Assembly (NCBI GenBank): GCA_002746935.1
Contig: PDRW01000038.1
Coordinates: 21,286-85,285, forward strand
DNA: 64,000 nucleotides
Direction: 5' to 3'
DNA from: Rhodobacterales bacterium
GTDB lineage: Bacteria; Pseudomonadota; Alphaproteobacteria; Rhodobacterales; Rhodobacteraceae
The translations under genes and the position numbers were made by a program. Of this stretch, positions 7,060 to 62,881 are shown piece by piece (position 1 is the first letter of the stretch; every line of letters starts with the position of its first letter). The notes beneath the pieces are model-generated. The model was not told the DNA's origin. It was given only the letters and a program-made list of their open reading frames with translations, and ran no database searches.

Positions 7060-7129
7060 GGCCCGCAGGATGGTCTGGCCGGGCGGCGGGTGCAAGCGGC
7101 GCAAGGGGGCGGTGACCGGCAGCGGACAT

Positions 7130-7282: not shown

Positions 7283-7387
7283 TGTGCTTATGGTCTACAC
7301 CTGTTCGTTTCGAAGATAGCACATGTTTCCCGGATTTGCACCTTGGCGCTCGTTCGAATGGTTTTGGCAGCCTTTGATGGCCGGACC

Positions 7388-7840: not shown

Positions 7841-8392
7841 AGGTTTCCCTGCGTTTTGCCTGCGATGTTCCGGACACAGCCTGAGCACGTCAAGGATTCG
7901 CTGAAACCTTGCCGGCCGGGTGGCCTCACGGCACGGGGCGCGCGGTCTGGCGGCAGAAGGCTCCATTTGTCCGCAAGACCGGTCTTCCAACAGGCCGCAC
8001 AGGCACCGGTTCCCCTCATCTGCACAGGCTTCTGACCCTCTTTCGGCCAAACAACGGGGGAACAGGCCATGGTGCGTTCGGGAGCCGGGCGATGAAAGCC
8101 TCATTCCGCCGCGTCGCAACCCGCGACGGGAAACATCACCCGGCTTCATGGCGATGATCAAGGATGATCAAGCTGGCACCGTTCAGACCATGGATCGGGT
8201 TTCATGAGGCGTGATCGGAAGATGTCTGGCGCCCCCTGCCAATCATCCCCAACGAGGGCGGTTGCGGCACCGGGAAGGTTTCGCATCCGGCCGGGGCCGT
8301 CACTTCCGGCGGCCGCTGCGCCGCGATGCACCGGAACCCTGCATCGCCCCCGGACAACCGGTGTTTGCCTGCGACACCACCGCCGGGCGGGC
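7841..8392. other. Intergenic stretch without a recognised gene
   Basis: About 550 nt between the secreted protein and the SufA-like gene. Several short frames are open on both strands, but none shows a family motif, a good ribosome-binding site and consistent codon use together. No tRNA or strong terminator hairpin was found. It may be decayed accessory DNA linked to the antitoxin remnant. Confidence 0.6.
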
Positions 8393-8779
8393 TCATTTGA
8401 GCGACGGCACCCCGCCTGCCGGGGGTGTCAGCGTTTCGTCGAACTTGACCGACTCGCCGCAGCCGCAGGCCTCGACCACATTGGGGTTGTGAAACTCGAA
8501 GCCGGATTCGAGCAGCGAGGTCTTGTAGTCGATCTCGGTGCCGAACAGGAACATCTGTGCCATCGGCGCGATCATCACCCGGGCGCCATCCTGTTCGACC
8601 ACCTCGTCGGCCGGGTCGATCTCGGTCACATAGTCCATGGTGTATTCCATCCCCGCGCAGCCCCCTTTCCTGACCCCGATGCGCAGCCCCTTGCAGTCGT
8701 CGCGCGACATCAGCCGGGCGATCTGTGCCGCGGCCGCGGGGGTGAGGGTGACGGCCTGTTTGCCGGGGATCGAAAACAT
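8393..8779 (-). CDS. sufA: HesB/IscA-family iron-sulfur carrier (SufA/ErpA-like)
   Basis: 128 residues from ATG at 8779 (MFSIPGKQAVTLTPAAAAQI). A-type carriers receive Fe-S clusters from the scaffold and deliver them to apoproteins. The three cluster-binding cysteines are present: GGCAGMEYTMDY, then EACGCGESVKF near the C terminus, the usual C-x(n)-CGCG arrangement. A GTG nine codons upstream is possible but unneeded. It lies 112 nt downstream of the SufT-like gene on the same strand, as at the end of many Rhodobacterales suf operons; however no sufBCDS precedes them here. Symbol is by family; ErpA would be equally defensible. Confidence 0.88.
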   Translation of the reverse strand: MFSIPGKQAVTLTPAAAAQIARLMSRDDCKGLRIGVRKGGCAGMEYTMDYVTEIDPADEVVEQDGARVMIAPMAQMFLFGTEIDYKTSLLESGFEFHNPNVVEACGCGESVKFDETLTPPAGGVPSLK

Positions 8780-8891
8780 CGGGCGCACTCCTGGCGGTTC
8801 CTGCACGGCCCGGGGGCTGCCGGGCTCACATGCCTTAACCTAGTCGCTCGGGCATTTCCGCTCAAGAGCCGCCCCGGCGCTCACCCGGGCC

Positions 8892-9254
8892 TCACATGAA
8901 GCCAAGCTCCAGCCGGGCGTCGTCCGACATCATGTCCATGCCCCAGGGCGGATCCCAGGTGATCTCGACATTGACCTGCGAGACCCCGGGCACCGTCCCG
9001 ATCGCCTCCTGCAACCAGCCCGGCATGTCGCCCGCAACCGGGCAGCCCGGTGCGGTCAGCGTCATGATCACGCTCACCACGCCCGCGTCGTCGATCTCGA
9101 TCGTGTAGACCAGCCCGAGGTCGAAGATATTGACCGGGATTTCCGGGTCATAGACCGTGCGACAGGCCTCGACCACCTGATCGTAGAGCGGATGGTCGAT
9201 TGTCGAGGACTTTATGATCGGAACGCCCTCCAGATACGGGGTTTCGGTGGTCAT
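8892..9254 (-). CDS. sufT: SUF-associated DUF59/MIP18 protein (SufT-like)
   Basis: 120 residues, a normal length. The MIP18 (DUF59) core is clear: [20 protein letters not shown], then [20 protein letters not shown] with the family Cys, and [20 protein letters not shown]. Such proteins help Fe-S cluster maturation or delivery. The gene is divergent from tgt (246 nt apart) and upstream of the SufA-like gene, so the two probably form a short transcript. In related genomes this pair usually closes a full sufBCDS operon; here the upstream partner is missing, so either the operon has been split or the rest lies elsewhere. Confidence 0.88.
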
Positions 9255-9500
9255 CGCGCCGCTCCCATCTGGCTGTGGTTAAACCTGAGCGTTCATATAA
9301 GGATCGGCCCGGTGCTGTCCAGACCCGTCCCCGTCCCGGAGCGGGACGGGCTCCGGGCGGGGAAAGCTGCGGGGTGCAATGCGCAAGCGCTCTTGCCGGG
9401 GCCGGGCTTTTGCGCCAAACCCGGCCGGAACCGGCGGGACCGGACCGGGCATGCGATGTGTCTGCGAGGGAACCGCGATCCGCCGCAACCGGGGGCCGAC

Positions 9501-37106: not shown

Positions 37107-37850
37107 TCAGTGGAACAACAGCGCGTCGGGCACCCGCTTTTCGGTGGCGAGGCGCATTCCCAGATGCGGCGGCGGCGCCCCGACCGCGCAGCCGCCCCGG
37201 GCGGGATCGCGGACAAGAAACGGGATCACGGCCTCATGTTCGCCCTGAACCACAAAGGCCGGACAGGCCTCGGGCGTCGTACCGCTCTGGTAGCAGTCCT
37301 GGGTCCATTCCCAGACATTGCCGTTGAGATCCTGAACGCCTTCCGTGGTTTCGGCCCAGGATCCCCGGGGCCGCAAGCGCCGGTCCACAAGGTTTTCCAC
37401 CAGATAGGTCGACGCCCATGTCAGGCTGGGATCGGTGAAGATCGGGTCCGGCTTTTCAGGCATCACCGGGGCGGCCAGCTCGGACCATTCTTCGGCGGTC
37501 ATCAGCCGGAACCGGTGCCGCGCCTTCTCGCTGATCCAGGCCAGATATTCGCTGACATCGGCATAGGACAGGTTGGTCGCGGGCCAGTCTTCGCCCTTGT
37601 CGAAGGTCGGCGGGCGCAGGTGCTGGGTGCAGCCGCCTTCATCGTAACAGCGGTTCCATTCGGCCAGCGACACCTCGCGGCGCGCCACCCAGAGCGGCTT
37701 GCCGCCCACTTCGGCCACGGCCACCATCTCGGGCATATAGGCGGGATCGGGGCCGCGCATCGCAAGGAAGGCGCCGGCCCCGGCGCCCCCCACCCCGAGC
37801 AGAACGGCCACGATGGCAATGCGTTTTGCGGTTTTCGGGGAAAGGGGCAT
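37107..37850 (-). CDS. nirV: NirV-like formylglycine-generating-enzyme-family protein
   Basis: 247 residues from ATG 37850. An N-terminal membrane anchor (RIAIVAVLLGVGGAGAGAFL) is followed by an SUMF1/FGE-type C-lectin-like domain (LWVARREVSLAEWNRCYDEG, WPATNLSYADVSEYLAWISE, GVQDLNGNVWEWTQDCYQSG, GMRLATEKR). NirV proteins follow nirK in many denitrifiers; their exact role in nitrite reductase function is unknown. Its start is 27 nt after the nirK stop, so it is in the same operon. The 166-nt gap towards phoB holds an AT-rich hairpin (CGGTAT 37019-37024 with ATACCG 37035-37040). Confidence 0.88.
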   Translation of the reverse strand: MPLSPKTAKRIAIVAVLLGVGGAGAGAFLAMRGPDPAYMPEMVAVAEVGGKPLWVARREVSLAEWNRCYDEGGCTQHLRPPTFDKGEDWPATNLSYADVSEYLAWISEKARHRFRLMTAEEWSELAAPVMPEKPDPIFTDPSLTWASTYLVENLVDRRLRPRGSWAETTEGVQDLNGNVWEWTQDCYQSGTTPEACPAFVVQGEHEAVIPFLVRDPARGGCAVGAPPPHLGMRLATEKRVPDALLFH

Positions 37851-37877
37851 TTTGCTGACCTCTCGTCAGAGCGTGGT

Positions 37878-39101
37878 TCACCGCGGGGCGACGACCTGTT
37901 CCATCAGGCTGTTGTCCCAGTCGCCTTCGACAACGAAATGCGCGGTGGCGCCCAGAATGGATGCCTCGATCAGGTTGTGGTTCACATAGGCGTAAACCCC
38001 GGGCTGACGCAGCGTGTACATCGCGGCAATGGCGCTGCCGCCCGGCACGAACCAGGTTTCCATGTTGGTCAGCGGCGCATCATGGAACGAGGCCGGCCAC
38101 ATGTAATCCGCATGCCCGCCGATCAGGTGCGGTCGCGAATCGCGGTTCGACTGGTTGTGGATCATCAGCACGGTGTCGCCGACCTTGAACTTCAGCGCCC
38201 CTTCCCCGGTGAGCGCGCCGACCGAACCGTTGAACACGCAATGCGAGGGGATCAGCCCGGCCATTGTCTCCAGATAATCCGCATAATCGTCGCCCGCGGC
38301 TTCATAGACCTTGTAATCGCCGTTTTCATCTTTCGGCAGGTAGTAATCCTGCTCGCCGATATAGGCGATCTTGTCATAATGCAGCGGGTTGCCGTCCTTG
38401 TCCTTCAGCCCGTCGCGCGGCAGCACCATCAGGCCACCGTTCATCCCGTGGGTGACGTGATAGGGGATCATCGCCCCACCCGGCGCGCAGTGATAGGTGA
38501 AGCACCCGGCCCGGGTCGCCTTCCAGCGCAGCACGGTTTCCTCGCCGGGCAGAACATGGGTCAGCCCGCCGCCACCCAGAGCGCCGGTCGAGGCATGGAA
38601 GTCGATGTTGTGCTCCATGTTCGAGTCTTCGCTGTTGCGCAGGGTCAGCTCGATATAGTCGCCTTCGTGGCAGATGATCAGCGGACCGGGAACCGAGCCG
38701 TTATAGGTCAGCGCCCAGACGGATGCCCCGGTGTCGTCATCGACCACCATCAGCTTTTCCTGGATCTCCATGGTGATCTCGATGATCTTCGGCTTGCCGG
38801 TGGCGACCTGTTCATGCTCGGGGGCGAAGGGCGGCGCGACCAGCTCCATCTTCACCCGCTCGTAGCCCGACAGATCCGCAGGCTTGGCGGTTGTGGCGGC
38901 GACCTGTTTTCCGGCGACCTTGTGAAGCTGGCGCGACACGGCATCGGCGGTGCGCGTCTGAGGCCCACGCCCTGCCGCCTGTGCGCCGGAGCCGGCCACC
39001 ATCGCGCCGGCGCCACTCGCGGCGGCGGCACCCGCAACAAGCGAGCCACGCAATACGTCGCGGCGGCTGGTGACGAGATGGGGATTGACGACTTTCTTCA
39101 T
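37878..39101 (-). CDS. nirK: Copper-containing nitrite reductase
   Basis: 407 residues from ATG 39101 after AGGAGGAAACAC. It reduces nitrite to nitric oxide in the periplasm. A Tat signal ([20 protein letters not shown]) leads two cupredoxin domains. Ligands are visible: type 1/type 2 copper His in [12 protein letters not shown], the adjacent Cys-His bridge [20 protein letters not shown] with the following [11 protein letters not shown] Met, and the catalytic His region [16 protein letters not shown] of domain 2. The N-terminal region is longer than in AniA types. Operon order is pseudoazurin-nirK-nirV, all on the minus strand. Confidence 0.96.
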
Positions 39102-39171
39102 GTGTTTCCTCCTGTTGGACCATGCGCATGTCACACCGGTACCGTTTGCCGGCAGCCTGGCCGCCGGCACA

Positions 39172-39187
39172 TGTCAGGGGTGTGACA
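39172..39187. promoter_or_regulatory. Inverted repeat in the nirK leader
   Basis: TGTCA (39172-39176) and TGACA (39183-39187) separated by six bases, about 70-85 nt upstream of the nirK ATG. Half-sites of this kind are used by Crp/Fnr-family proteins, but the sequence does not match the NnrR consensus TTGN8CAA. Suggestive only. Confidence 0.4.
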
Positions 39188-39191
39188 ATAT

Positions 39192-39258
39192 CGGAAAAGG
39201 TGCCCGGGAGCTTACTCCCGGGGCGCGGGCTTTCCCGGGCGCATCACCGCGCCCGGGA
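39192..39258 (-). terminator. Tandem hairpins between pseudoazurin and nirK
   Basis: On the minus strand, TCCCGGGCGC/GCGCCCGGGA (39233-39242 with 39249-39258) is followed by CCCGGGAG/CTCCCGGG (39203-39210 with 39215-39222) and then CACCTTTTCC. They start 16 nt beyond the pseudoazurin stop and probably end most pseudoazurin transcripts before nirK. Confidence 0.7.
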
Positions 39259-39274
39259 TGGCGTGTTTGCCAGA

Positions 39275-39712
39275 TTACTGGCTCAGGTTCTCAAGCTGCG
39301 CCTCGAAGCGCTTCATGGCCTTCTTCGGGATCTTGCCGCCGAGGAAGTCTTCCGGGGCGGCGCCGTCGCCCACGGCAATGGTCATCACCATGCCCATGGC
39401 GAAGTGCGGCTTGCACTTGATCCCGTAGAAACCCTCGGTGTTGAAGGTCACCTCGACTTCTTCATTGATCTTGCCGGTGAAGGTTTCGCCGCCCTCGGGG
39501 ACCATGCCCTTCATCGTTTCGGCGCTGTGACCCTTGTCGGTGGCGACAAACTTGACCGTGTCGCCGGGGGCGATGCGCAGGAAGTCGGGCTCGTACACCA
39601 TTGCCCCGGCATCGCCTTTGTTGAGCATCTGCACTTCAAACGTTTCGGCCCAGGCCGGCGCCGCGAGCGCCACCGCCACCGCGGTCGCGGCTGTCAACTT
39701 ACGAAACATCAT
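39275..39712 (-). CDS. Pseudoazurin (blue copper electron donor)
   Basis: 145 residues. The start is ATG 39712 or the next codon (MMFRKLTAATAVAVALAAPA, signal peptide, cleavage after AWA). The cupredoxin copper ligands are present: His in DKGHSAETMKGM and Cys-His-Met in GIKCKPHFAMGMV. The start AETFEVQMLNKGDAGAMVYE is typical of mature pseudoazurin. It carries electrons to NirK in the periplasm. Encoded upstream of nirK on the same strand and divergent from the NnrR-type gene. Confidence 0.95.
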   Translation of the reverse strand: MMFRKLTAATAVAVALAAPAWAETFEVQMLNKGDAGAMVYEPDFLRIAPGDTVKFVATDKGHSAETMKGMVPEGGETFTGKINEEVEVTFNTEGFYGIKCKPHFAMGMVMTIAVGDGAAPEDFLGGKIPKKAMKRFEAQLENLSQ

Positions 39713-39733
39713 GATCTCCCTATATGAGTATGC

Positions 39734-39788
39734 GTAACGTTGATACCACGTTACACCGGCAAGATACGCGAATATTGTTCTGCCGCAA
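39734..39788. promoter_or_regulatory. FNR/NnrR-type box and a second palindrome in the pseudoazurin/nnrR gap
   Basis: TTGTTCTGCCGCAA (39775-39788) fits TTG-N8-CAA, the consensus of NnrR/DNR/FNR sites controlling nir genes. A second palindrome, GTAACG-9-CGTTAC (39734-39754), lies nearer to the pseudoazurin start. The gap is 154 nt and serves two divergent genes. Confidence 0.7.
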
Positions 39789-39866
39789 CGTTCATCGCAA
39801 AAAGTGGTCTGGTGTGGGTCAAAACTGGCTGGTAATTTGCCCGTGAGTGCCTCCGAAAGCCCGACG

Positions 39867-40568
39867 ATGACACGACCTGACCCAGTTTTGTTGCGCGATC
39901 TGCCGGCCTTTGCCTCTCTCGACACCGATCAGATCCGGGCGATTCTCGATCTGGCCACGCCGCGGCAGCTGCGCGACGGGGCTCCGGTCTTCCATGAGGG
40001 CCATGACGCGGAGCTTTTCTTCCTGCTGCTCGACGGCCATGTGCGCGTTGTGCGGGCCAACGCGGATGGCCAGCAGATCATCGTGCTGTATCTGCATTCG
40101 GGATCGCTGATCGGGATCGCTGTGGCGCTCGGGCGCGACACCTACCCGGCCACCGCCATCGCCGCGGGCGATGTCTCGGTTCTTGCCTGGCCAAGCACGC
40201 TCTGGGAGGTGTTTGCCGCGCAATATCCCGGTTTCGCCCGCAGCGCCTATGCCACGGTCGGCACGCGGATCGGAGAGATGACCACCAACATGCTGGAAAC
40301 GGCGACGCAGCAGGTCGAGCGGCGCGTCGCCTGCGCGCTGGAGCGGATCCTGCGGCAATCGGGCCGCAGGGAGGCCGGTGGCATTGTCATCGAAATGCCG
40401 ATCACCCGCCAGAACATCGCCGACATGACCGGCGCGACACTGCACACGATCAGCCGTCTGCTGAGCGCCTGGGAGCGCGACGGGCTTATCAGGAGCGCCC
40501 GCCGCCGGATTACCGTCACCGACCCGGCGGGGCTTGCGCGGCTGTCGGGGGGGCTTTCGGGGCGCTGA
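39867..40568 (+). CDS. nnrR: Crp/Fnr-family regulator, NnrR type
   Basis: 233 residues from ATG 39867 (MTRPDPVLLRDLPAFASLDT). The cNMP-like sensor domain (FHEGHDAELFFLLLDGHVRV) is followed by the dimerisation helix and a Crp-type HTH (ITRQNIADMTGATLHTISRL, LSAWERDGLIRSARRRITVT). It lacks the N-terminal cysteine cluster of FNR, so it is not an oxygen-sensing Fe-S type; NnrR/DNR proteins respond to NO. Position beside pseudoazurin-nirK makes that role likely. Which subgroup cannot be fixed without a tree. Confidence 0.85.
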   Translation: MTRPDPVLLRDLPAFASLDTDQIRAILDLATPRQLRDGAPVFHEGHDAELFFLLLDGHVRVVRANADGQQIIVLYLHSGSLIGIAVALGRDTYPATAIAAGDVSVLAWPSTLWEVFAAQYPGFARSAYATVGTRIGEMTTNMLETATQQVERRVACALERILRQSGRREAGGIVIEMPITRQNIADMTGATLHTISRLLSAWERDGLIRSARRRITVTDPAGLARLSGGLSGR

Positions 40569-52800: not shown

Positions 52801-53328
52801 GCCAAATGCAAGGTCGAAGGTACCGTTGGCGAGGCGGCGCAGCGTGACCTGCGCGCCCTGCAACTCGATACGCCCGGGCCGGATCCGGCCCCGGAGCGCC
52901 GCGCGGCGGCTGAAACTGCCCTCCACCGCATTGATCTGCGCCAGGGTGAGCCCGCTGCCGTCGCGCAGGGACACATCCACCAGCCGCACCCGCGGCCGCC
53001 CGCCGCGGGTCAGCCCCAGCTCGACCCGGCTGAGTGAGACCGAACCCGAGGGCAGCGATGCGTTCAGCTCGTCGCGGACCCGTTCGGTGACCCATTCGGG
53101 CAGCACCACCACCCGCCCGGTGAAGGCCATGGAACTCAGCACGAGGAAAAGCGCAAGGCCAAACACCGCCACCAGCGACCAGAGCGACAGATGAAACCCC
53201 CACCGCCGCCGCCTGGCCCTCTGCCCGGGGGCCGGAGGCGGGGTCATGCCGGGGGCCGCGCTCTCCCCCGGGGGGGCGCCTGCGGGCCCGGCCTGCGGGC
53301 TCTCTGTGCGGATGAAAGCGTCACTCAT
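49861..53328 (-). CDS. AsmA/YhdP-like giant envelope protein (DUF3971)
   Basis: 1155 residues from ATG 53328 ([20 protein letters not shown]). One membrane anchor near residues 43-68 ([20 protein letters not shown]) is followed by a very long periplasmic beta-rich region of DUF3971/AsmA-C type ([70 protein letters not shown]). YhdP and related AsmA-like proteins act in phospholipid traffic to the outer membrane. It precedes queA by 10 nt, so the two are one transcript, though their functions look unrelated. Alternating hydrophobic residues throughout agree with a bridge-like protein. Confidence 0.85.
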
Positions 53329-53434
53329 CGTGCCCGGCGCGGTTCTTGCCTGATCCCAGAAATGCGTTCCGGCTTTCCCCGGGCGGTCTGCCGCCGTAAA
53401 ACCGGTTGAGCCATGGTGACCAGAGAGGCACGAA

Positions 53435-53938
53435 ATGTCCACCGAACTCGTACAGCCCGGCATGGAAGCGCCGGGTTTCACCCTGCCGCGCGATGGCGGC
53501 GCGCCGGTTTCGCTCGCCGGTTTGGCGGGCCGCCGGGTGGTGCTGTTCTTCTACCCCAGGGCATCGACCCCCGGCTGCACCACCGAAGCCTGCGATTTCA
53601 CCGCCAGGGCAGCGGATTTCGAGGCCGCCGGTGCCGTGCTGCTGGGCATATCCAAAGACAGTGTGAAACGGCAGGAAAACTTCGCCGCGAGGCACGGCCT
53701 CACCATGGCGCTGCTGTCGGATGCCGAAAGCGACACCTGCGAGCGCTATGGGGTCTGGACGGAAAAGAAGATCTTTGGCCGCAGCTACATGGGGATCGTG
53801 CGCAGCACCGTGCTGATCGGACCCGACGGCGTGGTTGAAAAGGTCTGGTCCAACGTGCGGGTGAAGGGCCACGCGGCCGAGGTGCTGGCGGCTGTTCAGG
53901 CGGCGGGTCGGGCGGCGGTGGACAACGCTCCCCGGTGA
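53435..53938 (+). CDS. bcp: Thioredoxin-dependent thiol peroxidase (BCP/PrxQ)
   Basis: 167 residues. Catalytic peroxidatic Cys in STPGCTTEACDFT with a second Cys five residues on, the PrxQ atypical 2-Cys arrangement. Other landmarks are VVLFFYPRASTPGCTTEACD, GISKDSVKRQENFAARHGL and RSTVLIGPDGVVEKVW. It detoxifies hydroperoxides using thioredoxin. ATG 53435 follows AGAGGCACGAA. Divergent from the AsmA-like gene with 106 nt between. Confidence 0.95.
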   Translation: MSTELVQPGMEAPGFTLPRDGGAPVSLAGLAGRRVVLFFYPRASTPGCTTEACDFTARAADFEAAGAVLLGISKDSVKRQENFAARHGLTMALLSDAESDTCERYGVWTEKKIFGRSYMGIVRSTVLIGPDGVVEKVWSNVRVKGHAAEVLAAVQAAGRAAVDNAPR

Positions 53939-54341
53939 GTTTCGGCCCCGTCTGGCGCGCGGCAGGGTCCGCAGGTGCGGGAGGCTGTTGTTTCCATGTG
54001 TTTCCATGGGTGCGACAATTCGCCCGCCGGCCACGCCTTCTCCCCCCCCGCGCCCTGCCACAAACCGCCGGGGTTCGGCCCGCAAGCCTTGCCCGGGCCC
54101 CGGCCTCCGGCCCGTCACCCATCGCTGACAGAAAGCCACGGCAACCGGGAGTGTTTCTCTGATCGAAACGATTGCGTGCCCACCGGCGGTTTATCGCTTT
54201 CCGGCCAGGGCCCGGAGAGTGACGCCGCGCCCCAGCTTGCCTCCCCTCGTCCCCTCCGGTAAGCAGGGGGCCAGGCGCGGGGGCACCCGGGGGCAACGGG
54301 GCGCGCCGGAATGAACTGGGGCAACAGGGCTGGACCTGGCG
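53939..54341. other. Non-coding stretch between bcp and the M23 gene
   Basis: 403 nt. It contains a direct repeat TGTTTCCATG (near 53988-54007) and a less GC-rich patch at 54145-54200 that may carry the promoter of the M23-bactofilin unit. No gene, tRNA or clear terminator was seen. Confidence 0.5.
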
Positions 54342-55658
54342 GTGAAACGAGTCTTCAACCGATTGAACCACGCGTTTGAGCGCAATTTCCCCGAACAGCG
54401 GGTGTTTCTGCGTTCGGAAGCCGGCACGCGCTTCGTGATCGTGCCACCGGTGATGCAGGTGACCGGCTGGTTCGTCTCCGCCGCTTTCGTGGCCTGGGCG
54501 ATCATCGCCACCGCGGTGCTGATGATGGATTCGATCGGCTCGGGCTCGCTGCGCGATCAGGCCGCGCGCGATCAGGCATTTTACGAGCAGAGGTTGCAGC
54601 TTCTTGCCGCCGAACGCGATGCCTCGGCCAGTGAAGCCGCCGCCGCGCAGGCGCGTTTCGCCCAGGCAATGGCGCGGATTTCAACAATGCAATCGGAGCT
54701 TCTGGCCTCCGAGGAGCGGCGGCTGGAATTCGAGGCCGGGCTCACCAAGATCCAGCAGAATCTGAGCGACGCCATGAGCGAACGCGACCAGGCCCGTGCC
54801 GCGCTTGAAGCGATGCTCGCCGAGACCGGCGGGACCGGGCTTGCGCCATCCGGCGAGAGCGTGCCCACCGGCGCCGACGCTGCCGTGGCTTTTCTGACCG
54901 CGGCGCTTGAAGAAACCGCCCTCGAGCGCGATGCCCAGGCCGAGGCCGCCGCCGAGGCGGAAGCCCATGCCGAAAACCTGGTTTTCGAACAGCGCCTGCG
55001 CGACGAGCGCAACGACCAGATCTTCCGCCAGCTCGAAGACGCGGTGACCGTCTCGCTGGAACCGCTCGACAAGATGTTCGCCGCCTCCGGCATGTCGACC
55101 GACGAGATCCTCGACACCGTGCGCAGCGGCTATTCCGGCCAGGGCGGGCCGCTGATGCCGCTTGTGTTCTCCTCGAAGGGCGCCGACACCGATGCCGACA
55201 CGCTGCGCGCCAACGAGATTCTCGACGCGCTCGACCGCATGAACCTCTACCGCATCGCCGCCGAGAAGCTGCCGTTCGGCATGCCGGTGCAGGGCCGTTT
55301 CCGCTATACGTCGGGGTTCGGCAGGCGCTGGGGCCGGCTTCATGCGGGCACCGACATGGCCGGTCCCGTCGGCACCCCGATCGTCGCTCCGGCCGACGGG
55401 GTGGTGACCGAGGCCGGCTGGGTGTCGGGATACGGACGTCTGATCAAGATCCGGCACGATTTCGGAATTGAAACACGCTACGGTCATCTTTCTGCCATCA
55501 AGGTCCGAAAAGGACAAAGAGTCTCGCGCGGGGAGCGAATTGGTGATATGGGTAATTCCGGCAGATCGACCGGCCCCCACCTGCATTACGAAATCCGCGT
55601 GGACGGCAAGCCAATCGACCCGATGATCTACATCAAGGCAGGGAAACATGTTTTCTAA
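54342..55658 (+). CDS. Membrane-anchored coiled-coil M23 peptidase
   Basis: 438 residues starting at GTG 54342 (MKRVFNRLNHAFERNFPEQR). One membrane helix (GWFVSAAFVAWAIIATAVLM) is followed by a long coiled coil (about residues 75-230, rich in Ala/Glu) and a C-terminal LytM/M23 domain with zinc ligands in GRLHAGTDMAGPVGTPIVAP (HxxxD) and STGPHLHYEIRVDG (HLH). It cleaves peptidoglycan peptide cross-links in the periplasm. The same plan is seen in LmdC of Hyphomicrobium, which pairs with the bactofilin BacA. The bactofilin gene overlaps its end by 11 nt. Confidence 0.93.
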   Translation: MKRVFNRLNHAFERNFPEQRVFLRSEAGTRFVIVPPVMQVTGWFVSAAFVAWAIIATAVLMMDSIGSGSLRDQAARDQAFYEQRLQLLAAERDASASEAAAAQARFAQAMARISTMQSELLASEERRLEFEAGLTKIQQNLSDAMSERDQARAALEAMLAETGGTGLAPSGESVPTGADAAVAFLTAALEETALERDAQAEAAAEAEAHAENLVFEQRLRDERNDQIFRQLEDAVTVSLEPLDKMFAASGMSTDEILDTVRSGYSGQGGPLMPLVFSSKGADTDADTLRANEILDALDRMNLYRIAAEKLPFGMPVQGRFRYTSGFGRRWGRLHAGTDMAGPVGTPIVAPADGVVTEAGWVSGYGRLIKIRHDFGIETRYGHLSAIKVRKGQRVSRGERIGDMGNSGRSTGPHLHYEIRVDGKPIDPMIYIKAGKHVF

Positions 55659-56148
55659 AAGCAGGATCAATGAACCCGGACCGAAGCAGGCCGGAGAACC
55701 CGAGACCAAGCCGGGCGCGGCTGGCAGTGCCAAGCCGGGCGGCGCCATGTCCGCACCGACGCCCCCGAGCGCCCCGAAACCCAAGGCCCCGGCCTCGATG
55801 CTGTCGGCCGACCTCGTGGTCAAGGGCAACATGAAATCCACCGGCGATATCGTCATCGAAGGCACGGTGGAAGGCGACATCCGCGCCCATATGCTGACCG
55901 TCGGCGAAACCGCCACCGTCAAGGGCGAAGTCGTCGGCGATGACGTGGTGGTCAACGGCCGCATCATCGGCCGGTTGCGGGGGCTGAAAGTCCGCCTCAC
56001 CGCCACCGCGCGGGTTGAGGGCGATATCGTGCACAAGACCATCGCCATCGAATCGGGTGCCCATTTCGAGGGTTCGGTGCAGCGTCAGGAAGACCCGCTC
56101 ACCAATGCGGGCAAGAAGGTCAGCCCTCCCCCCAAGGCTGAGGCCTGA
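55648..56148 (+). CDS. Bactofilin
   Basis: 166 residues. After a disordered Pro/Lys-rich N terminus (about 45 residues), the beta-helical DUF583 domain spans ASMLSADLVVKGNMKSTGDI, VIEGTVEGDIRAHMLTVGET, ATVKGEVVGDDVVVNGRIIG and on to GAHFEGSVQRQ. Bactofilins polymerise without nucleotide at the membrane and position cell-wall enzymes. Translationally coupled to the M23 gene, which makes a BacA/LmdC-like shape module likely. Followed by a strong terminator. Confidence 0.93.
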   Translation: MFSKSRINEPGPKQAGEPETKPGAAGSAKPGGAMSAPTPPSAPKPKAPASMLSADLVVKGNMKSTGDIVIEGTVEGDIRAHMLTVGETATVKGEVVGDDVVVNGRIIGRLRGLKVRLTATARVEGDIVHKTIAIESGAHFEGSVQRQEDPLTNAGKKVSPPPKAEA

Positions 56149-56212
56149 TCCGGAGACCTCCGCAGGCTGGCCCTCACCGGCCCCTCACCGGCCTTGCCAC
56201 CGCAATCTCAGG

Positions 56213-56242
56213 CCGCCCGGCACCGGGCGGTTTGTTTGCTTT
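56213..56242 (+). terminator. Terminator of the M23-bactofilin operon
   Basis: Perfect CCGCCCGG (56213-56220) and CCGGGCGG (56223-56230) around a two-base loop (extended loop in RNA), followed by TTTGTTTGCTTT. It lies 65 nt after the bactofilin stop. Confidence 0.85.
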
Positions 56243-56430
56243 GGCACCCCTGTGGCACCCCTGTTGCCCGGGCCCCGGAAACAGGGGCCGGACGATCCGC
56301 CCGCGCTCCGGGCAGCGTCGCCGCGCGGCGACGCTTCACGCGGGCGCGCGCCCGCGTCTTTCCCGGTAGCAGTCGCTGTGCGTTTCAGAGCCTCCCGGCC
56401 GGCCGGCCCGCGCCGCCTCGGTCCTCGGCC

Positions 56431-57555
56431 TCAGTCTTCGGCCCTGGCCTCGGCGCGGGACTTGCCCGCCACATCCAGCGCCAGCGTCGCGGCCATGAAG
56501 GCGTCAAGATCGCCATCGAGCACGCCTTGCGTGTCGGAGGTCTCGTGATTGGTGCGCAGATCCTTCACCATCTGGTAGGGCTGGAGAACATAGGAACGGA
56601 TCTGGTTGCCCCAGCCCGCGTCGCCCTTGGCCTCGTGCAGCGCGTTGACTTCGGCGTTGCGCCGGTCGAGCTCCAGCTGGTAGAGTCGCGATTTCAGCGC
56701 CTTCATGGCGATGTCGCGGTTCTGGTGCTGGGATTTCTCGGAAGATGTCACCACGATCCCGGTGGGCATATGGGTGATCCGCACCGCCGAGTCGGTGGTG
56801 TTCACATGCTGGCCGCCCGCGCCCGAGGAGCGGTAGGTGTCGATGCGGATATCGGCGGGGTTGACCTCGATCTCGATATTGTCGTCGACCACCGGATAGG
56901 CGCCGACCGCGGCGAAGCTCGTCTCGCGGGTGCCCTTGCCGAAGGGCGAGATGCGCACCAGGCGGTGGGTGCCGCTCTCGGACTTCAGCCAGCCATAGGC
57001 GTTGTGGCCCTTGATCTGGTAGGTGACCGACTTGATGCCCGCCTCGGTGCCCGGCGTCTCTTCCTGCAATTCCACCGCGAAGCCGCGCTTCTCGGCCCAG
57101 CGGGTATACATCCGCGCCAGCATCGCCGCCCAGTCGCAGGCTTCGGTGCCGCCGGCGCCGGACTTGATCTCGAGGAAGGCGTCGTTGGCGTCGGTCTCGC
57201 CGTTCAGCAGCGCCTCGAGCTCGGCGGCGGCGGCCTTTTCCGCCAGCGCGGAGATGGCGGCCTCGGCCTCGGCGACGACCTCGTCGTCGCCCTCCGCCTC
57301 GCCCATCCCGATCAGCTCCACATTGTCGGACAGCTCCTGCGCCATGGCCCGGTAGCCCTCCATCGCCTCGACCAGCGCCTGGCGCTCGCGCATCAGCTTC
57401 TGCGCCCGGGCCGGATCGTTCCACAGCTCGGGGTCTTCGGTCATGGCATTGAGTTCTTCGAGCCGGTGATCGGCACTGTCCATGCCGATCCGGGTTTCGA
57501 GGAGCTTCAGCGAGGCTTCGACGGCCTCGACGATCTTCTGGGTTTCCGCACGCAT
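56431..57555 (-). CDS. prfB: Peptide chain release factor 2
   Basis: 374 residues from ATG 57555 (MRAETQKIVEAVEASLKLLE). It terminates translation at UGA and UAA. The stop-codon tripeptide is SPF (RISPFGKGTRETSFAAV) and the peptidyl-tRNA hydrolysis motif GGQ is in RSSGAGGQHVNTTDSAVRI. There is no in-frame UGA near codon 26, so the programmed frameshift that controls E. coli prfB is absent. Divergent from the beta-glucosidase gene. Confidence 0.97.
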   Translation of the reverse strand: MRAETQKIVEAVEASLKLLETRIGMDSADHRLEELNAMTEDPELWNDPARAQKLMRERQALVEAMEGYRAMAQELSDNVELIGMGEAEGDDEVVAEAEAAISALAEKAAAAELEALLNGETDANDAFLEIKSGAGGTEACDWAAMLARMYTRWAEKRGFAVELQEETPGTEAGIKSVTYQIKGHNAYGWLKSESGTHRLVRISPFGKGTRETSFAAVGAYPVVDDNIEIEVNPADIRIDTYRSSGAGGQHVNTTDSAVRITHMPTGIVVTSSEKSQHQNRDIAMKALKSRLYQLELDRRNAEVNALHEAKGDAGWGNQIRSYVLQPYQMVKDLRTNHETSDTQGVLDGDLDAFMAATLALDVAGKSRAEARAED

Positions 57556-57785
57556 CGGACGCGGCCCTCGCTGGTGATAAGGTGGCCTCCCGGGATGTAG
57601 CCCGGGGCCGGCGCCAAGGCAAGCCGGTGCACGCACGGGGTACGGCCGCGCGGGCAAACCGCCGGCAAACCGCCTGCCCCTTTGACCCCGCCCCCCGGCG
57701 GCTCTAGGCTGCGCAAAGCCGCCCGGACTGCCCGGACGGTGCGCCACCATCCGGCCACACATCCGGCCACAACGGAGCCAGCCCC

Positions 57786-59114
57786 ATGCCCCTCACCACG
57801 ACCCGCGCAGATTTTCCCGACGGCTTCCTGTTCGGCGCCGCCACCGCCGCCACCCAGATCGAAGGCTCGTCCTTCGGCGGCGCGGGCCCCTCGCATTGGG
57901 ATACGTTCGCCGCCACCCCCGGCAACACCGACAAGGGCGACAACCCGGCCGTGGCCTGCGGAAGCTATACCCGTCTCGACGAAGACCTCGACCTGCTCGA
58001 AGGCGCCCATCTCGACGCCTACCGGTTTTCGCTCAACTGGAGCCGGGTGCTGCCCGAAGGCCGCGGGGCGGCAAACCCGGAAGGGCTCGATTATTACGAA
58101 CGTCTGGTCGATGGCGCGCTCGAACGCGGGCTGAAGCCGATGGCCACGCTCTATCACTGGGACATGCCCGCCGCGCTCGCCGATCTCGGCGGCTGGCGCA
58201 ACCGCGACGTGGCCGAATGGTTTGCCGATTACGCCGAAGTGGTGATCAGGCGGCTCGGCGACCGGCTGTTCAGCACCGCCACGATCAACGAGCCCTGGTG
58301 CGTGTCCTATCTGTCGCATTTCCTCGGGGTCCACGCCCCCGGCCTGCGCGACATCCGCGCCACCGCCCGTGCGATGCATTTCGTGCTGCTGGCGCATGGC
58401 AAGGGCATCGGGCGGATGCGGGCGCTGGGGCAGAAAAACCTCGGTATCGTGCTGAACCACGAAGACATCACCCCCGCCGACGACAGTCCCGAAGCCGCCG
58501 CTGCCGCCGCCCGCGAAGACGCCACCTACAACCGCTGGTTCCTCGAAGGTGTCTTCCGCGGCAGCTATCCGGCCGAAGCCCTCGAAGGGCTCGGCCCCCA
58601 CATGCCCCGGGGCTGGCAGGACGACATGGCCACGATCTCGGCGCCGCTCGACTGGATCGGCAGCAATTACTACACCCGTTCGCTGATCGCCCCCGCCGAC
58701 GGTCCCTGGCCCGCGACCACCCATGTCGCCGGTCCCCTGCCGAAAACCGAAATGGGCTGGGAGATCTTCCCCGAAGGGCTCACCAATGTGCTCGAACGGG
58801 TCCGGGCCCATGCCGGCGGCATTCCGCAATACATGAGTGAAAACGGCATGGCGGCGCCGGATGTGGTCGCCAATGGCGAAGTGGCCGATGCCGACCGCAT
58901 CGCCTATATCGACGCGCATTTCCGCGCCGCGCTCAAGGCGATCGAGGCCGGCGTGCCGCTCAAGGGCTTCATCATCTGGACCCTGATCGACAATTTCGAA
59001 TGGGCGGTGGGTTATGACAAACGCTTCGGCATTGTGCGGGTCGATTTCGACACCCTTGAACGAACGCCGAAGGCTTCGTATCACGCCCTGAAAGCCGCCC
59101 TCGCCCGGGACTGA
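57786..59114 (+). CDS. GH1 beta-glucosidase
   Basis: 442 residues. Glycoside hydrolase family 1 fold with acid/base Glu in FSTATINEPWCVSYL and nucleophile Glu in PQYMSENGMAAP. The start FPDGFLFGAATAATQIEG is the family's N-terminal signature, and WTLIDNFEWAVGYDKRFGIV closes the barrel. No signal peptide: it acts in the cytoplasm on imported beta-glucosides such as cellobiose. Glucokinase follows 61 nt downstream and would trap the released glucose. No sugar ABC transporter is in the window. Confidence 0.95.
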   Translation: MPLTTTRADFPDGFLFGAATAATQIEGSSFGGAGPSHWDTFAATPGNTDKGDNPAVACGSYTRLDEDLDLLEGAHLDAYRFSLNWSRVLPEGRGAANPEGLDYYERLVDGALERGLKPMATLYHWDMPAALADLGGWRNRDVAEWFADYAEVVIRRLGDRLFSTATINEPWCVSYLSHFLGVHAPGLRDIRATARAMHFVLLAHGKGIGRMRALGQKNLGIVLNHEDITPADDSPEAAAAAAREDATYNRWFLEGVFRGSYPAEALEGLGPHMPRGWQDDMATISAPLDWIGSNYYTRSLIAPADGPWPATTHVAGPLPKTEMGWEIFPEGLTNVLERVRAHAGGIPQYMSENGMAAPDVVANGEVADADRIAYIDAHFRAALKAIEAGVPLKGFIIWTLIDNFEWAVGYDKRFGIVRVDFDTLERTPKASYHALKAALARD

Positions 59115-59175
59115 CCCGAGGCCAGCAGCCCGCCCCGGCGCCTGGCGCAGAATGCACCTCCGAAGGAGTTCGCCC

Positions 59176-60159
59176 ATGCCCGCACCCAACACCTATTCGC
59201 TGCTCGCCGATATCGGCGGCACCAACACCCGCGTGGCTCTCGCCGAGGGCACGAGGCTTTTGCCGGAATCGGTGCGGAAGTTCCGCAATGCCGATTACCC
59301 GGGGCTCGGCGCGGTGCTGGAACGCTATCTCGACGCCAACGGCAACCCCGATTGCGCCGGGGCCTGCGTCGCCGGCGCGGGTCCGGTGAGCGACGGCACG
59401 CTGACGCTCACCAACCTCGACTGGAGCATCGACGGCGACATCGTCGCCCGCGCCGCCAGGGCCGAAAAGGTCGCGGTGCTCAACGATCTGCAAGCCCAGG
59501 GTCACGCGCTCGGCCATCTGCCGGACAGCGCGCTCACCCGGGTCGTGGACAGTGCCGACAGCCCCCACAGGCGAGGCCCGGAGGCGACCATGCTGGTGAT
59601 CGGCATCGGCACCGGGTTCAATTGCGCGCCGGTCTACCAGACCCCCGGCGGCCGCCTGGTGCCGCCGGCCGAGGCCGGCCACGCCAACCTGCCGATCCGC
59701 TCCGAAGTGGAGCTGGAACTGTGCCGGGCGCTGGAAGACGCCCACGGCTTTCCCTCCATCGAGGAAGTGCTGTCGGGGCGCGGCCTGAAACATCTCGACG
59801 CCTTCTTCGCCCGCCGCGCCGGCGAACCGCGTGAACTCACCTCCGACCAGATCATCGCCGCCGCCACCGCCGGCGACGATCCGATCGCGAAAGACGCGCT
59901 CAGCGAATTCATCCGCATCTTCGGCACCGTCACCGGCAACCTCGCGCTGATCCACCTGCCCTTCGGCGGCATCTACCTCATCGGCGGCATGGCCCGCGCG
60001 GTGACGCCGTGGTTCGAAACCATGGGCTACGGCGACGCCCTCCGTGACAAGGGACGGTTCGCGGGCTTCATGCGGAATTTTTCGGTGAGTGTGGTCGACG
60101 ACGATTATGCCGCCCTGACCGGCTGCGCGCATCACCTCGATGGCCTGATCAGAGCCTGA
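59176..60159 (+). CDS. glk: Glucokinase
   Basis: 327 residues from ATG 59176 (MPAPNTYSLLADIGGTNTRV), with AAGGAG upstream. Proteobacterial glucokinase (Glk) type, not ROK: phosphate-1 motif LLADIGGTNTRVALAE, catalytic Asp in KVAVLNDLQAQGHAL, GIGTGFNCAPVY and the glucose-binding EAGHANLPIR. It phosphorylates glucose to glucose 6-phosphate. Placed after the beta-glucosidase in a probable two-gene unit. Confidence 0.95.
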   Translation: MPAPNTYSLLADIGGTNTRVALAEGTRLLPESVRKFRNADYPGLGAVLERYLDANGNPDCAGACVAGAGPVSDGTLTLTNLDWSIDGDIVARAARAEKVAVLNDLQAQGHALGHLPDSALTRVVDSADSPHRRGPEATMLVIGIGTGFNCAPVYQTPGGRLVPPAEAGHANLPIRSEVELELCRALEDAHGFPSIEEVLSGRGLKHLDAFFARRAGEPRELTSDQIIAAATAGDDPIAKDALSEFIRIFGTVTGNLALIHLPFGGIYLIGGMARAVTPWFETMGYGDALRDKGRFAGFMRNFSVSVVDDDYAALTGCAHHLDGLIRA

Positions 60160-60261
60160 TACTTGCCGGCTGCGCGGCAGATTGTATCACGGACGGGAAC
60201 AATTCCATCACCGGGACCATCACCGGGAGCGGCCTGACGGCCGCCGCCTGCGGCGGGCAAG

Positions 60262-60312
60262 CCCGGGGGCGCTGCCCCCGGACCCCCGGAGTATTTGACC
60301 CAGGAAAAAGAA
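60262..60312 (-). repeat. Dispersed hairpin repeat, copy 6
   Basis: CCCGGGGGCGCTGCCCCCGG, ACCCCCGGAGTATTTGACCC, AGGAAAAAGAA, the reverse complement of copies 1 and 3 with few changes. It lies in the gap where glk and the SufB-like gene converge. Confidence 0.88.
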
Positions 60313-60408: not shown

Positions 60409-61533
60409 CTACATCCCGCCGGATTTCGCCTGGGCGATCATCTGAGCGATGCGCGCTTTCAGCGCCTTCGGAACAGCCTTGCTGTCGAGCGACAGGAAGC
60501 CCTGCACGATCAGATCGCGCGCCGCATCTTCCTCCATGCCCGCGGCCATCAGGTAGTTGAGCTTTTCGGTGTCGATCATGCCGACCGAGGCTTCGTGGCT
60601 CAGCTGCGACCCTTCGGCCTTCGCCTGAAGCGATGGTACCGCGACGATCTCGCCCGCCGCGCCGAGCTTCAGCCCGTCGCAGCCGAGAAAGCCCTGGGTG
60701 CCGCCCACATCGCCCACCAGCAGTGCGTTGTTGACGATCCGCCCGCCCGCCGAGACCATCCGCGTCAGGTCTTCCGACCGCGCCCCCGCGCCCGTCAGGT
60801 GGGTTTCGGTGTGGTTGATCCGCTCGGTGCCCTCGGGCGCGAAGCAGATCGCCTGCGACACCTCAACCGCCGCCTCCTCCAGGATCGTGTGCGAATGGCT
60901 CACATGGTGGCGGATCGGCGCCAGGGCGATCGACATCGAGGTGTCCTGCGCGCCCTTCTCCATCCGCGAATAATTGTAGGAATGGATCTCCATCCCCGGC
61001 CCCCAATGCTCGATCGACACCGACCGGCAGCGCGACCCGGGCCGCATGTAGGTCTCGTGCAGCGAGATGTGGCGCCCGCGATGCACCTCGGAGGGCGCCG
61101 CCGCGCCCGAGACCATTTCGACCTCGGCGCCTTCGTCGATCAGGGTGATGTCATGGGTGAACTGGCGCACCTGCGGGGTTTCCATCAGGCTGAAGGTCTG
61201 CACCGGCAGGCGGACCTTCGCGCCCGGTTTGACCCAGACGAAATGCCCCAGCGGGTCGTGCATGTGCTCGGCGATCATGGCGATATGCTCGTTCGCATCC
61301 GCATCGACCAGGCCGAACATCAGATCCTGCACGAACTCGAACGTCGTGAGCGCCTCGTTCAGCGGCATGATCACCACGCCATCGTCGTTGGTCTCGGCCA
61401 GCCTGACCTCGGCATCTGTCAGGATCGCCGTGGCCGCGCGCTTCGACATGTCGTCAAAGCCGACTTCGATCAGCGCCTCGCGTTCGGCGTTGGTGATGGT
61501 CGTGGCGTCGGTTCTGGCATGCGTGTCTGTCAT
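60409..61533 (-). CDS. SufB/SufD-family Fe-S scaffold, archaeal/SMS type
   Basis: 374 residues, shorter than proteobacterial SufB (~490) or SufD (~420). The C-terminal half shows the family's beta-helix and the pattern I recall from archaeal SmsB/SufB: HRGRHISLHETYMRPGSRCR with HWGPGMEIHSYNYSRMEKGA, then GGTQGFLGCDGLKLG, and AEGSQLSHEASVGMIDTEKL NYLMAAG. The Cys in FLGCDG and Glu in SHEASVG occupy the positions of cluster-building residues. It probably assembles Fe-S clusters with the ATPase encoded 15 nt upstream. Less likely it is a degenerate SufD. The canonical sufBCDS set is not in the window. Confidence 0.82.
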   Translation of the reverse strand: MTDTHARTDATTITNAEREALIEVGFDDMSKRAATAILTDAEVRLAETNDDGVVIMPLNEALTTFEFVQDLMFGLVDADANEHIAMIAEHMHDPLGHFVWVKPGAKVRLPVQTFSLMETPQVRQFTHDITLIDEGAEVEMVSGAAAPSEVHRGRHISLHETYMRPGSRCRSVSIEHWGPGMEIHSYNYSRMEKGAQDTSMSIALAPIRHHVSHSHTILEEAAVEVSQAICFAPEGTERINHTETHLTGAGARSEDLTRMVSAGGRIVNNALLVGDVGGTQGFLGCDGLKLGAAGEIVAVPSLQAKAEGSQLSHEASVGMIDTEKLNYLMAAGMEEDAARDLIVQGFLSLDSKAVPKALKARIAQMIAQAKSGGM

Positions 61534-61548
61534 CGCTTCGTCTCCTGT

Positions 61549-62280
61549 TCAGCCCGCTTGCGGGACCGTGTAGCCGTGATGCTGGATATGGCTGAACAGG
61601 GCCGCCGGATCGCCGGAATGCACCAGGCGTCCGTCGTTCAGCACATGCGCCCGCGCCGCATTCACATGCGACAGGATCAGCCCGGTGTGGGTAATCACCA
61701 GACCGGCACGCGGCCGCCCCTTTGCATCGGGCGCGGCCACCAGGTCGCGGATCGCCTGACCGATGGCGCGCACATGTTCGAGGTCCACCCCGCTTTCGGG
61801 CTCGTCGAACAGCATCAGCCGCGGGTCTTGCAGCACCAGTTTCAGCACCTCCCAGCGCTTGATCTCGCCGCCCGAGAAGCCGACGTTCATGTCGCGCGAG
61901 ATGAAGTCATGAAGATCGAGCTTCGCCGCCGCCTCGGCCAGCCGCGCCTCTGCCCCCAGCGATTGCGCAAAGGCGGTGACGGTGACGCCGTTGAGGCTCG
62001 GCGGGCGCTGAAACGCCATGCCGATCCCGGCCGCGGCCCGCGCGCGCAAGTCGAGGTCGCGGATGTCCTCGCCATCGACGAGGATGCTGCCGGAGGTCAC
62101 CTTCCAGGGCGGCAGCCCCATGATCGCCGCCAGCAGGCTCGACTTGCCCGACCCGTTCGGCCCCAGAAGCACATGGGTCTCGCCCGGCATCACCCGCAGC
62201 GATATGCCGTCCACGACGGTCTTGCCGCCCACCCAGACGCTCACGTCACGCAACTCGAGAATGGCTGTTTCAGACCGCAT
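61549..62280 (-). CDS. SufC-family Fe-S assembly ATPase, archaeal/SMS type
   Basis: 243 residues from ATG 62280 after AAGGAGGAAGAC. Walker A GPNGSGKSSLLAAIMG, signature MNVGFSGGEIKRWEVLKLV and Walker B with LMLFDEPESGVDLEHV. SufC of E. coli reads ILDESDSGLD at that site, while archaeal and clostridial SmsC reads DEPDSGVD, so this protein sides with the latter. SufC ATP hydrolysis drives rearrangement of the SufB scaffold. Co-transcribed with the SufB-like gene (15-nt gap). The gene leader (62281-62400) has an 11-bp tandem GCAACCCGGAC. Confidence 0.87.
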   Translation of the reverse strand: MRSETAILELRDVSVWVGGKTVVDGISLRVMPGETHVLLGPNGSGKSSLLAAIMGLPPWKVTSGSILVDGEDIRDLDLRARAAAGIGMAFQRPPSLNGVTVTAFAQSLGAEARLAEAAAKLDLHDFISRDMNVGFSGGEIKRWEVLKLVLQDPRLMLFDEPESGVDLEHVRAIGQAIRDLVAAPDAKGRPRAGLVITHTGLILSHVNAARAHVLNDGRLVHSGDPAALFSHIQHHGYTVPQAG

Positions 62281-62881
62281 GTCTTCCTCCTTGCGGTGTT
62301 CGCACACCGCCTTTCGGGCCACGCCCCAGGCGCAACCCGGACGCAACCCGGACGCAACCCCGCTGACACCCGATGATCCCGGCAAACCCGGAACCGGAAA
62401 CACGCCCCAACGCCGGGGCAGTTCAAGCCACAACCCGCCCACGACCCGCAGCGTCCACTCGCACCAATTATATTCGGATTACTCCCTTGTCGTCGTTGAT
62501 TCAGATCATGCGCCGGCTTCGCCGAACTATAGGGACACGATGAAAACCTTTGATAGATATATGAATTCCTTCATATCTGGCAGATCAGAGGCGGTCAGAA
62601 AAGCGCTTGGAGGCCGAAACGCGGTTTGCGGATCCAGCCGTCCTTCGGCATGCCAACACCCGTCAGCAGGGCGAACGGGATGAGACCTTCGCCAGTTCGG
62701 CACAGGCGCGCAGATGCCCCCGGCCGACGGCGATCAATGCGGCCAGAGAGCGCCCGGCCGCTGCCGTCCTGTCTGGCGCATCCGTGCGATACCGAGGGTG
62801 CGGCGGGCAGCCCGGCCCGGGTGTCTGGACATGCGGGGCGAATGCGTGGCTAATGGGCGCACGTGCGAAGGGGAAGCGGCA
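62281..62881. other. 600-nt gap with repeats, a low-GC island and a possible small ORF
   Basis: Two copies plus a partial third of GCAACCCGGAC at 62332-62361. From about 62460 to 62585 the GC content falls sharply; within it ATATGAA-TTCC-TTCATAT (62559-62576) is a perfect palindrome. A 47-codon ORF (62540-62683, MKTFDRYMNSFISGRSEAVR KALGGR...) has a weak AGGG upstream, but no similarity is recognised. The rest, 62690-62880, shows nothing. Confidence 0.5.

Follow-up and report, generated by a model that had tools for sequence, protein, structure and literature searches.

The question raised by positions 60409..62280 (minus strand) of the stretch analyzed here, a window of 64,000 nucleotides from a Rhodobacterales bacterium (contig PDRW01000038.1), is whether an alphaproteobacterium harbors an archaeal-type two-gene system for iron-sulfur (Fe-S) cluster assembly and, if so, what such a pair would do beside the SUF machinery. 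A preliminary description of the window had read the locus as an SMS-type SufB-SufC pair. Both open reading frames (ORFs) are real, their coordinates are exact, and the sequence blocks cited for them (DEPESGVD, LHETYM, FLGCDG, and LSHEASVG) are present with their motifs conserved. The genes form a two-gene operon in the order smsC-smsB, and by phylogeny the scaffold belongs to the methanoarchaeal SmsB lineage. The interpretation developed below, to which about an even chance is assigned, is that smsCB is an accessory two-protein Fe-S scaffold, with an SmsB of methanoarchaeal lineage, that would be fed by sulfide and would carry its cluster at the SmsB-SmsB interface. The features of the operon are as follows.

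60409..61533, minus strand: smsB-like scaffold of 374 amino acids with a SufBD core; C285, H313, and E314 correspond to E. coli SufB C405, H433, and E434, and the Cys254 position is Ala
61549..62280, minus strand: smsC-like ATP-binding cassette (ABC) ATPase of 243 amino acids with Walker A GPNGSGKS, DEPESGVD, and zero cysteines; ends 15 bases before smsB
62286..62292, minus strand: Shine-Dalgarno sequence AAGGAGG for smsC, five bases 5′ of the ATG, which favors the ATG start at 62280

A longer, 297-residue reading of smsC from a GTG is without support, and the ATG start with its AAGGAGG is preferred.

Affiliation of the scaffold and the ATPase

The window SmsB scores 79.6 bits against Pfam SUFBD_core (cut-off 27). 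The curated NCBIfam models give 119.8 bits for SmsB (cut-off 650), 111.1 for SufB (346.4), and 57.5 for SufD (222), all so far under their cut-offs that none of these models claims the protein. Its partner reaches 177 bits against the SufC model (cut-off 212.8). Alignments and trees were built from ten representative carriers, with the near-copies G335, NZ_CP015419 (L060), and NZ_CP015422 omitted. In all ten loci smsC is followed by smsB across gaps of 14–34 bases, and the scaffolds are uniformly 365–374 residues long. The ratio of nonsynonymous to synonymous substitution rates is 0.07–0.14 in three of four pairs compared and 0.30–0.36 between the window and genome G342; the low values make the genes look selected.

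A 35-row tree unites the ten scaffolds in a single clade (support 100/100), next to which come M. mazei 4DN7 (97/88) and, one node deeper, MJ0034 of M. jannaschii (99/97), apart from SufB and SufD. The program flagged long branches in this tree, above all MJ0034; a second tree, from which MJ0034 and the E. eligens SufD were dropped for that reason, retains the clade (100/99) and its union with 4DN7 (100/100). Constraining the clade to group with proteobacterial SufB lowers the likelihood by 70.8 log units (p-value of the approximately unbiased test, p-AU, 1.6e-87), constraining it to SufD by 44.9 (p-AU 4.7e-4), and constraining 4DN7 to SufB by 44.8 (p-AU 2.3e-4). The grouping with archaeal SmsB that the preliminary description had proposed is thus borne out for the scaffold, with two archaeal reference sequences in the trees. 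Given these two sequences and the long stem of the clade (~1.5 changes per column), the donor cannot be named.

Pairwise comparison agrees, the window SmsB matching M. mazei with 178.9 bits and E. coli SufB or SufD with at most 50.3. PDB 4DN7, which is M. mazei SufB (PMC5571166), is its closest solved relative by sequence (29% identity over residues 12–371, E 1.6e-51) and its sister in the tree. When 4DN7 is compared with plasmid records, this clade ranks first (31–32% identity, E 3e-54 and 3e-53). SmsB proteins are reported to be short, mostly under ~420 residues (PMC12442378).

The ATPase is a different matter. The ten SmsC sequences group together (100/99) and fall outside the clade of proteobacterial SufC (98/99). 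The tree rejects neither an affiliation with MJ0035 (p-AU 0.205) nor one with proteobacterial SufC (p-AU 0.453), and it gives the SMS-type placement claimed for this subunit no support. The window SmsC scores 141.3 bits with Thermus SufC, 138.2 with E. coli SufC, and 104.2 with MJ0035, and this order does not favor an archaeal origin. The preliminary description had also taken DEPESGVD as a sign of an SMS-type ATPase. The motif is found in 10/10 members, while 17 SufC rows comprise 14 with DETDSGLD, one with DEIDSGLD, E. coli with DESDSGLD, and one misread by the pattern; MJ0035 reads DEPDSGID. A DEP start also occurs in two unrelated ABC ATPases and looks like a common ABC state, so the motif was rejected as an SMS marker.

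These results bear on the improbable alternative that the pair consists of rapidly diverged copies of the SufB or SufD and the SufC of its host. In its favor are the ATPase tree, which leaves room for proteobacterial SufC, the fact that SufC is the best match of SmsC among solved structures, and the PLSDB label “SufD family” on five of six plasmid records. The rejected SufB and SufD placements of the scaffold and its bit scores contradict it. Nor do the residues bear out the SufD label, as all nine SufD rows are without the Cys405 and Glu434 equivalents that are both present in 10/10 members.

Cluster-site residues and comparison with known systems

With E. coli SufB numbering applied to the alignment, the equivalents of C405, H433, and E434 are kept in 10/10 scaffolds; as Cys285, His313, and Glu314 they are invariant across the ten representatives plus M. 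mazei. The Cys254 position is Ala, Ser, or Asn in all ten and Cys in 4DN7, MJ0034, and 14/14 SufB rows. In E. coli, SufB C254 is described as the essential persulfide acceptor from SufE, and SufB C405 and E434 plus SufD H360 as the likely cluster ligands (PMC5571166). Equivalents of C254, C405, E434, and SufD H360 are reported to be highly conserved in archaeal homologues (PMC12584684). This clade retains part of that set, with C405/H433/E434 kept and C254 replaced in 10/10. For T. kodakarensis SmsB, C357, H385, and E386 have been proposed as ligands (PMC12442378).

In methanogens, by comparison, the cluster has been placed on the ATPase: C218, C239, and C242 in M. jannaschii SmsC (PMC12192291) and C218, C237, and C240 in Methanothermococcus SufC (PMC12584684). 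The C-terminal motif is reported for 292 of 415 archaeal SmsC (PMC12192291) and for only some bacterial and non-methanogen homologues (PMC12584684). No CxxC occurs in any of the ten SmsC members here, which have zero to two scattered cysteines each (zero in the window protein). A classical SMS of the Methanocaldococcus kind, in which C-terminal SmsC cysteines bear the cluster, is suggested by the SmsB phylogeny and the two-gene operon; the cysteine-free window SmsC contradicts it by sequence, and this reading is highly improbable. The pair is SMS lineage by scaffold phylogeny and, as predicted from its residues, not classical SMS by mechanism.

The likenesses to known systems and the differences from them are as follows. 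(i) M. mazei 4DN7 shares the C405/H433/E434 equivalents with this clade and, unlike the clade, keeps that of Cys254. (ii) M. jannaschii SmsC2B2 (MJ0035/MJ0034) is likewise a two-gene SmsC/SmsB system whose SmsB groups with the clade through MJ0034; its C239-x-x-C242-type SmsC motif and its Cys254 equivalent are both missing here (PMC12192291). (iii) T. kodakarensis SmsB2C2, likened by its description, has a similar proposed C/H/E ligand set, while its SmsB falls in a longer clade of 430–450 residues (PMC12442378). (iv) Bacterial SUF (SufBC2D with SufS-SufE) is alike in its ABC ATPase, its SufBD-core scaffold, and the SufB-side cluster residues; smsCB differs in having no linked SufD, SufS, or SufE found, no Cys254, and a separate clade. 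(v) The SufCB proteins of Blastocystis, Pygsuia, and Stygiella, also likened by description, are methanoarchaeal-type proteins in distant lineages, some beside another Fe-S system, but are eukaryotic and fused (PMC6857552); they provide a precedent for methanoarchaeal SufCB having moved into other lineages (PMC6857552).

Distribution, insertion site, and neighborhoods

Membership in the family is sharply delimited in the collected set, where members score 406–822 bits and the next sequence 90. The pair is present in 6/394 genomes of the same taxonomic family, one per genus and including the window genome, and in 2/346 of those with completeness of 90% or more and no more than 5% contamination. 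Of the six, G335 is doubtful: its 3.3-kb contig (C44, L037) is 100% identical in DNA to G244 (L072), while the SufB DNA of the two genomes is 81% identical, so G335 was probably mis-binned and was rejected as an independent carrier. It is absent from the trees and counted in the 6/394, the SufB/SufD co-occurrence, and the NnrS and reaction-centre tallies. A class-wide sample contains the pair in 1/385 genomes, the window genome itself; a phylum-wide sample yields 8/398, namely the window genome plus seven canonical-type matches at 22–25% identity. None of 390 genomes of another alphaproteobacterial family has it (a search run without a positive control), nor do any of six congeners of the window genome, two of which are just 73–74% complete. 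The concern that the pair might be a normal Rhodobacterales paralogue is answered by these counts.

Beyond these samples, a scan sensitive to close relatives only found the pair on two named contigs, from Phaeovulum vinaykumarii (Paracoccaceae, Rhodobacterales according to NCBI) and a Parvularcula metagenome-assembled genome (MAG); G282 and G425 represent one Phaeovulum genome (locus L033), as their matches agree in contig numbers and coordinates. Among 72,556 plasmid records, six carry it: four from Rhodovulum and one each from Novosphingobium pentaromativorans US6-1 and Sphingomonas panacis. The nearest relatives of the window scaffold are the Parvularcula MAG sequence and G342, at 71% each, and the Parvularcula sequence is its sister in both trees (98/98 in the 35-row tree, 90/73 in the second). 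This kinship fits transfer among Alphaproteobacteria, unless the Parvularcula contig is mis-binned. The patchy, partly plasmid-borne distribution likewise fits the transfer suggested in the preliminary description, and the pair seems to be mobile within the Alphaproteobacteria, with plasmids as part of the route.

Viral carriage was rejected within the viral collections searched. An alignment searched with two peptide patterns gave 42 pattern matches in viral_contigs, none confirmed as a relative. The phage collection yielded 18 records at just 20.6–25.9% identity (three named SufB, two “iron-sulfur cluster assembly protein”, the rest unannotated), and one of them that was fetched, an unannotated gut scaffold, has SufC- and SufB-type ORFs together with, by reading, SufD-like and desulfurase-like ORFs. 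No description of an SMS-type pair in Alphaproteobacteria appeared among the literature matches listed, which covered titles and abstract starts with most subscription journals outside coverage. As a separate observation, sufB on a Halomicrobium plasmid (L077:3662-5497) adjoins a gene for a CGCGG ribosomally synthesized and post-translationally modified peptide (RiPP) of the radical S-adenosylmethionine (rSAM)-modified type; no sufC or sufD is listed in the 9-kb stretch, for which the PLSDB gene table is incomplete.

The insertion site is variable. Window positions 53000-60160 are syntenic with congeners (pieces at 72–83%); past the glucokinase gene (glk), the remaining matches are dispersed-repeat copies and a few short, scattered ones of less than 100 bases. 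Three congeners were compared at the site, with gene names by reading: a chemotaxis-like set is common to G001 and G004, and the genes of G005 are unrelated. The G+C fraction across smsCB is 0.64–0.68, like the flanks, and falls to 0.60 immediately upstream of smsC. The synteny break, the congener gene content, and the flank-like composition together make acquisition from a similar high-GC genome likely. The contig ends where the window does, ~2 kb from smsCB. The elements around the operon are as follows, none with an assigned strand.

60263..60311: short repeat of a dispersed family in the interval from glk to smsB, where congener synteny stops; many similar copies across six congeners
62496..62509: tentative Fnr-type box TTGATTCAGATCAT, one mismatch to TTGATNNNNATCAA; its centre lies 222 bp before smsC, and it may serve the divergent gene
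62559..62576: tentative inverted repeat upstream of smsC, ATATGAA-4-TTCATAT

Allowing two mismatches within 500 bases upstream of smsC, one Fnr site was found in L071 and two in L062 (Novosphingobium), and none in L032, L033, L059, L060, L061, L063, L072, or L073; the upstream region of L037 comprises only 46 bases. The expected chance rate per 300 bases is ~0.014 from the window's own three matches or ~0.0025 from shuffles. Fnr control as a general rule was rejected, the one-mismatch box being present in the window alone.

No suf partner (SufD, SufS, SufE/SufU, or SufA) was found beside smsCB among annotated or read neighbors, the Phaeovulum contig being just 3.4 kb long. The neighborhoods are otherwise mixed. 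The preliminary description had pointed to nir genes in the window, and these are present: nirK (444.6 bits, cut-off 296.3), pseudoazurin (140.9 bits, cut-off 109.85), and a Crp/Fnr-type regulator occupy 37878-40568, ~20 kb from smsCB. The surrounding stretch 37107-40568 holds nirK, an FGE-sulfatase-domain protein (presumably NirV-like, by its position), pseudoazurin, and the regulator. The last is 55% identical to one near smsCB on a Rhodovulum plasmid. On the R. sulfidophilum DSM 2351 plasmid the order is a divergent Crp/Fnr-type regulator, an annotated pseudoazurin, an annotated NnrS, smsC, and smsB; the pseudoazurin is weak on its model (21.5 bits, cut-off 109.85), “hypothetical” in DSM 1374, and unlisted in MB263. 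Upstream of smsC on the Sphingomonas plasmid, at a distance of one gene, lie cytochrome bd genes, cydD, and a further ABC gene; the upstream region on the Novosphingobium plasmid holds a PAS sensor plus two response regulators. In G342 (L071) modA (85.2 bits, cut-off 62.5, scored on a fragment) follows smsB. No low-oxygen genes adjoin the pair in G126 and G244, by reading.

Two further arrangements were observed. At L071 ~6900-9500, molybdate transporter genes come right after smsB on the same strand, modB and modC being named by reading. On the Parvularcula MAG contig (L032:3188-4348), a gene for a di-heme MbnH/MauG-like enzyme, scoring under the model cut-offs, overlaps the smsC start by four bases.

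Coexistence with SUF and the role of the pair

All six other carrier genomes, one of them the doubtful G335, contain three SufBD matches, namely canonical SufB, SufD, and smsB. The window assembly has a single SufBD match, smsB itself, and its best class-V aminotransferase (PF00266) match scores 157.7 bits against 423–471 in nine other genomes. These two results are what would suggest that the pair has replaced SUF as the sole Fe-S scaffold of the window genome. A 20-kb suf stretch of one congener aligns over ~16 kb at 80–82% in a second congener, where it is thus largely intact; in the window genome it is represented by three pieces at 68–72% on scattered contigs and three matches shorter than 60 bases. 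The absence of the entire suf neighborhood with its flanks from an assembly that is 83.9% complete points to a gap rather than to SUF loss, which was rejected. Together with the SufB and SufD kept in the six other genomes, this renders replacement very unlikely. The sufBCDS check proposed in the preliminary description hence came out divided: neither the genes nor their syntenic stretch were found in the window assembly, and SufB and SufD are present in the other carriers. Comparative gene content indicates that the pair is an accessory system, not a replacement for SUF. An A-type Fe-S carrier of the TIGR00049 family is encoded at window 8393-8779; its best match is SufA, under that model's cut-off.

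In the proposed mechanism, SmsB and SmsC would most likely assemble as SmsB2C2, and the SmsB-SmsB interface would be opened when ATP drives the SmsC dimer closed; interface opening by ATP-driven ATPase dimerization has been proposed for SUF (PMC5571166). The nascent cluster would be held by Cys285, His313, and Glu314 of each SmsB chain. Sulfur would probably enter as sulfide and not from SufSE, given the loss of Cys254 and the lack of any linked desulfurase gene among those found. The M. jannaschii SMS is reported to have used sulfide and to have rescued E. coli only without oxygen (PMC12192291). The pair may operate beside the normal SUF system, perhaps under low oxygen or where nitric oxide (NO) or iron limitation damages clusters.

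Several observations weigh against this accessory-scaffold reading. Some firmicute SufB proteins are nearly as close to 4DN7 as this clade is (31% identity, E to 9e-48), and both the tree and the scores of the ATPase leave its archaeal affiliation unsupported. A further cysteine, C169, occurs in 8/10 scaffolds by count on the alignment and could accept sulfur from a shifted position. Work on Methanothermococcus reported that the SufB Cys and His residues tested there are dispensable and that SufC bears the cluster (PMC12584684); retention of the triad therefore does not require that it bind one. The sufCB pairs of M. acetivorans are described as deletable without loss of Fe-S content (PMC10500019). 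The one-mismatch Fnr box is confined to the window and not conserved in other loci. Carriers show no enrichment of NnrS (4/7 versus 19/35 non-carriers) or of the photosynthetic reaction centre (Photo_RC; 2/7 versus 10/35). Completeness differs between the groups: four of the seven carriers fall under 90%, and 27 of the 35 non-carriers reach 90% or more with contamination of 5% or less, so that missing genes lean against the carriers. A genome-level association with NO or phototrophy was rejected as evidence. For the low-oxygen Fe-S supply envisaged in the preliminary description, some neighborhoods are suggestive and genome-level enrichment is missing; with mixed neighborhoods and negative tests, a low-oxygen or NO role is a hypothesis.

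A possible but less probable explanation is that the pair carries or repairs clusters or acts as a regulator rather than assembling clusters de novo, or mixes with SufC/SufD to retune SUF or serve one client. It draws on the SufB and SufD of the six other carrier genomes, on the joint absence of Cys254 and the SmsC CxxC, and on the dispensable M. acetivorans pairs (PMC10500019); the invariance of C285, H313, and E314 and the adjacency of the two genes, each in 10/10, speak against it. The accessory-scaffold reading also has a bolder form, advanced tentatively: a third mode of Fe-S assembly in which a mobile SmsB2C2, with neither the persulfide entry of SUF nor the ATPase-borne site of SMS, would use free sulfide and build clusters nowhere but at the SmsB-SmsB interface, providing facultative aerobes with a back-up to SUF under low oxygen or nitrosative stress.

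The site of cluster formation on SufB-type scaffolds is disputed, E. coli genetics pointing to the SufB-SufD interface and methanogen work to SmsC. With the interface residues kept and the SmsC motif missing, one purified complex of this clade could separate the two models. The distribution of the pair suggests that scaffolds of the SMS lineage also occur outside anaerobes and can be carried by plasmids into bacteria already equipped with SUF.

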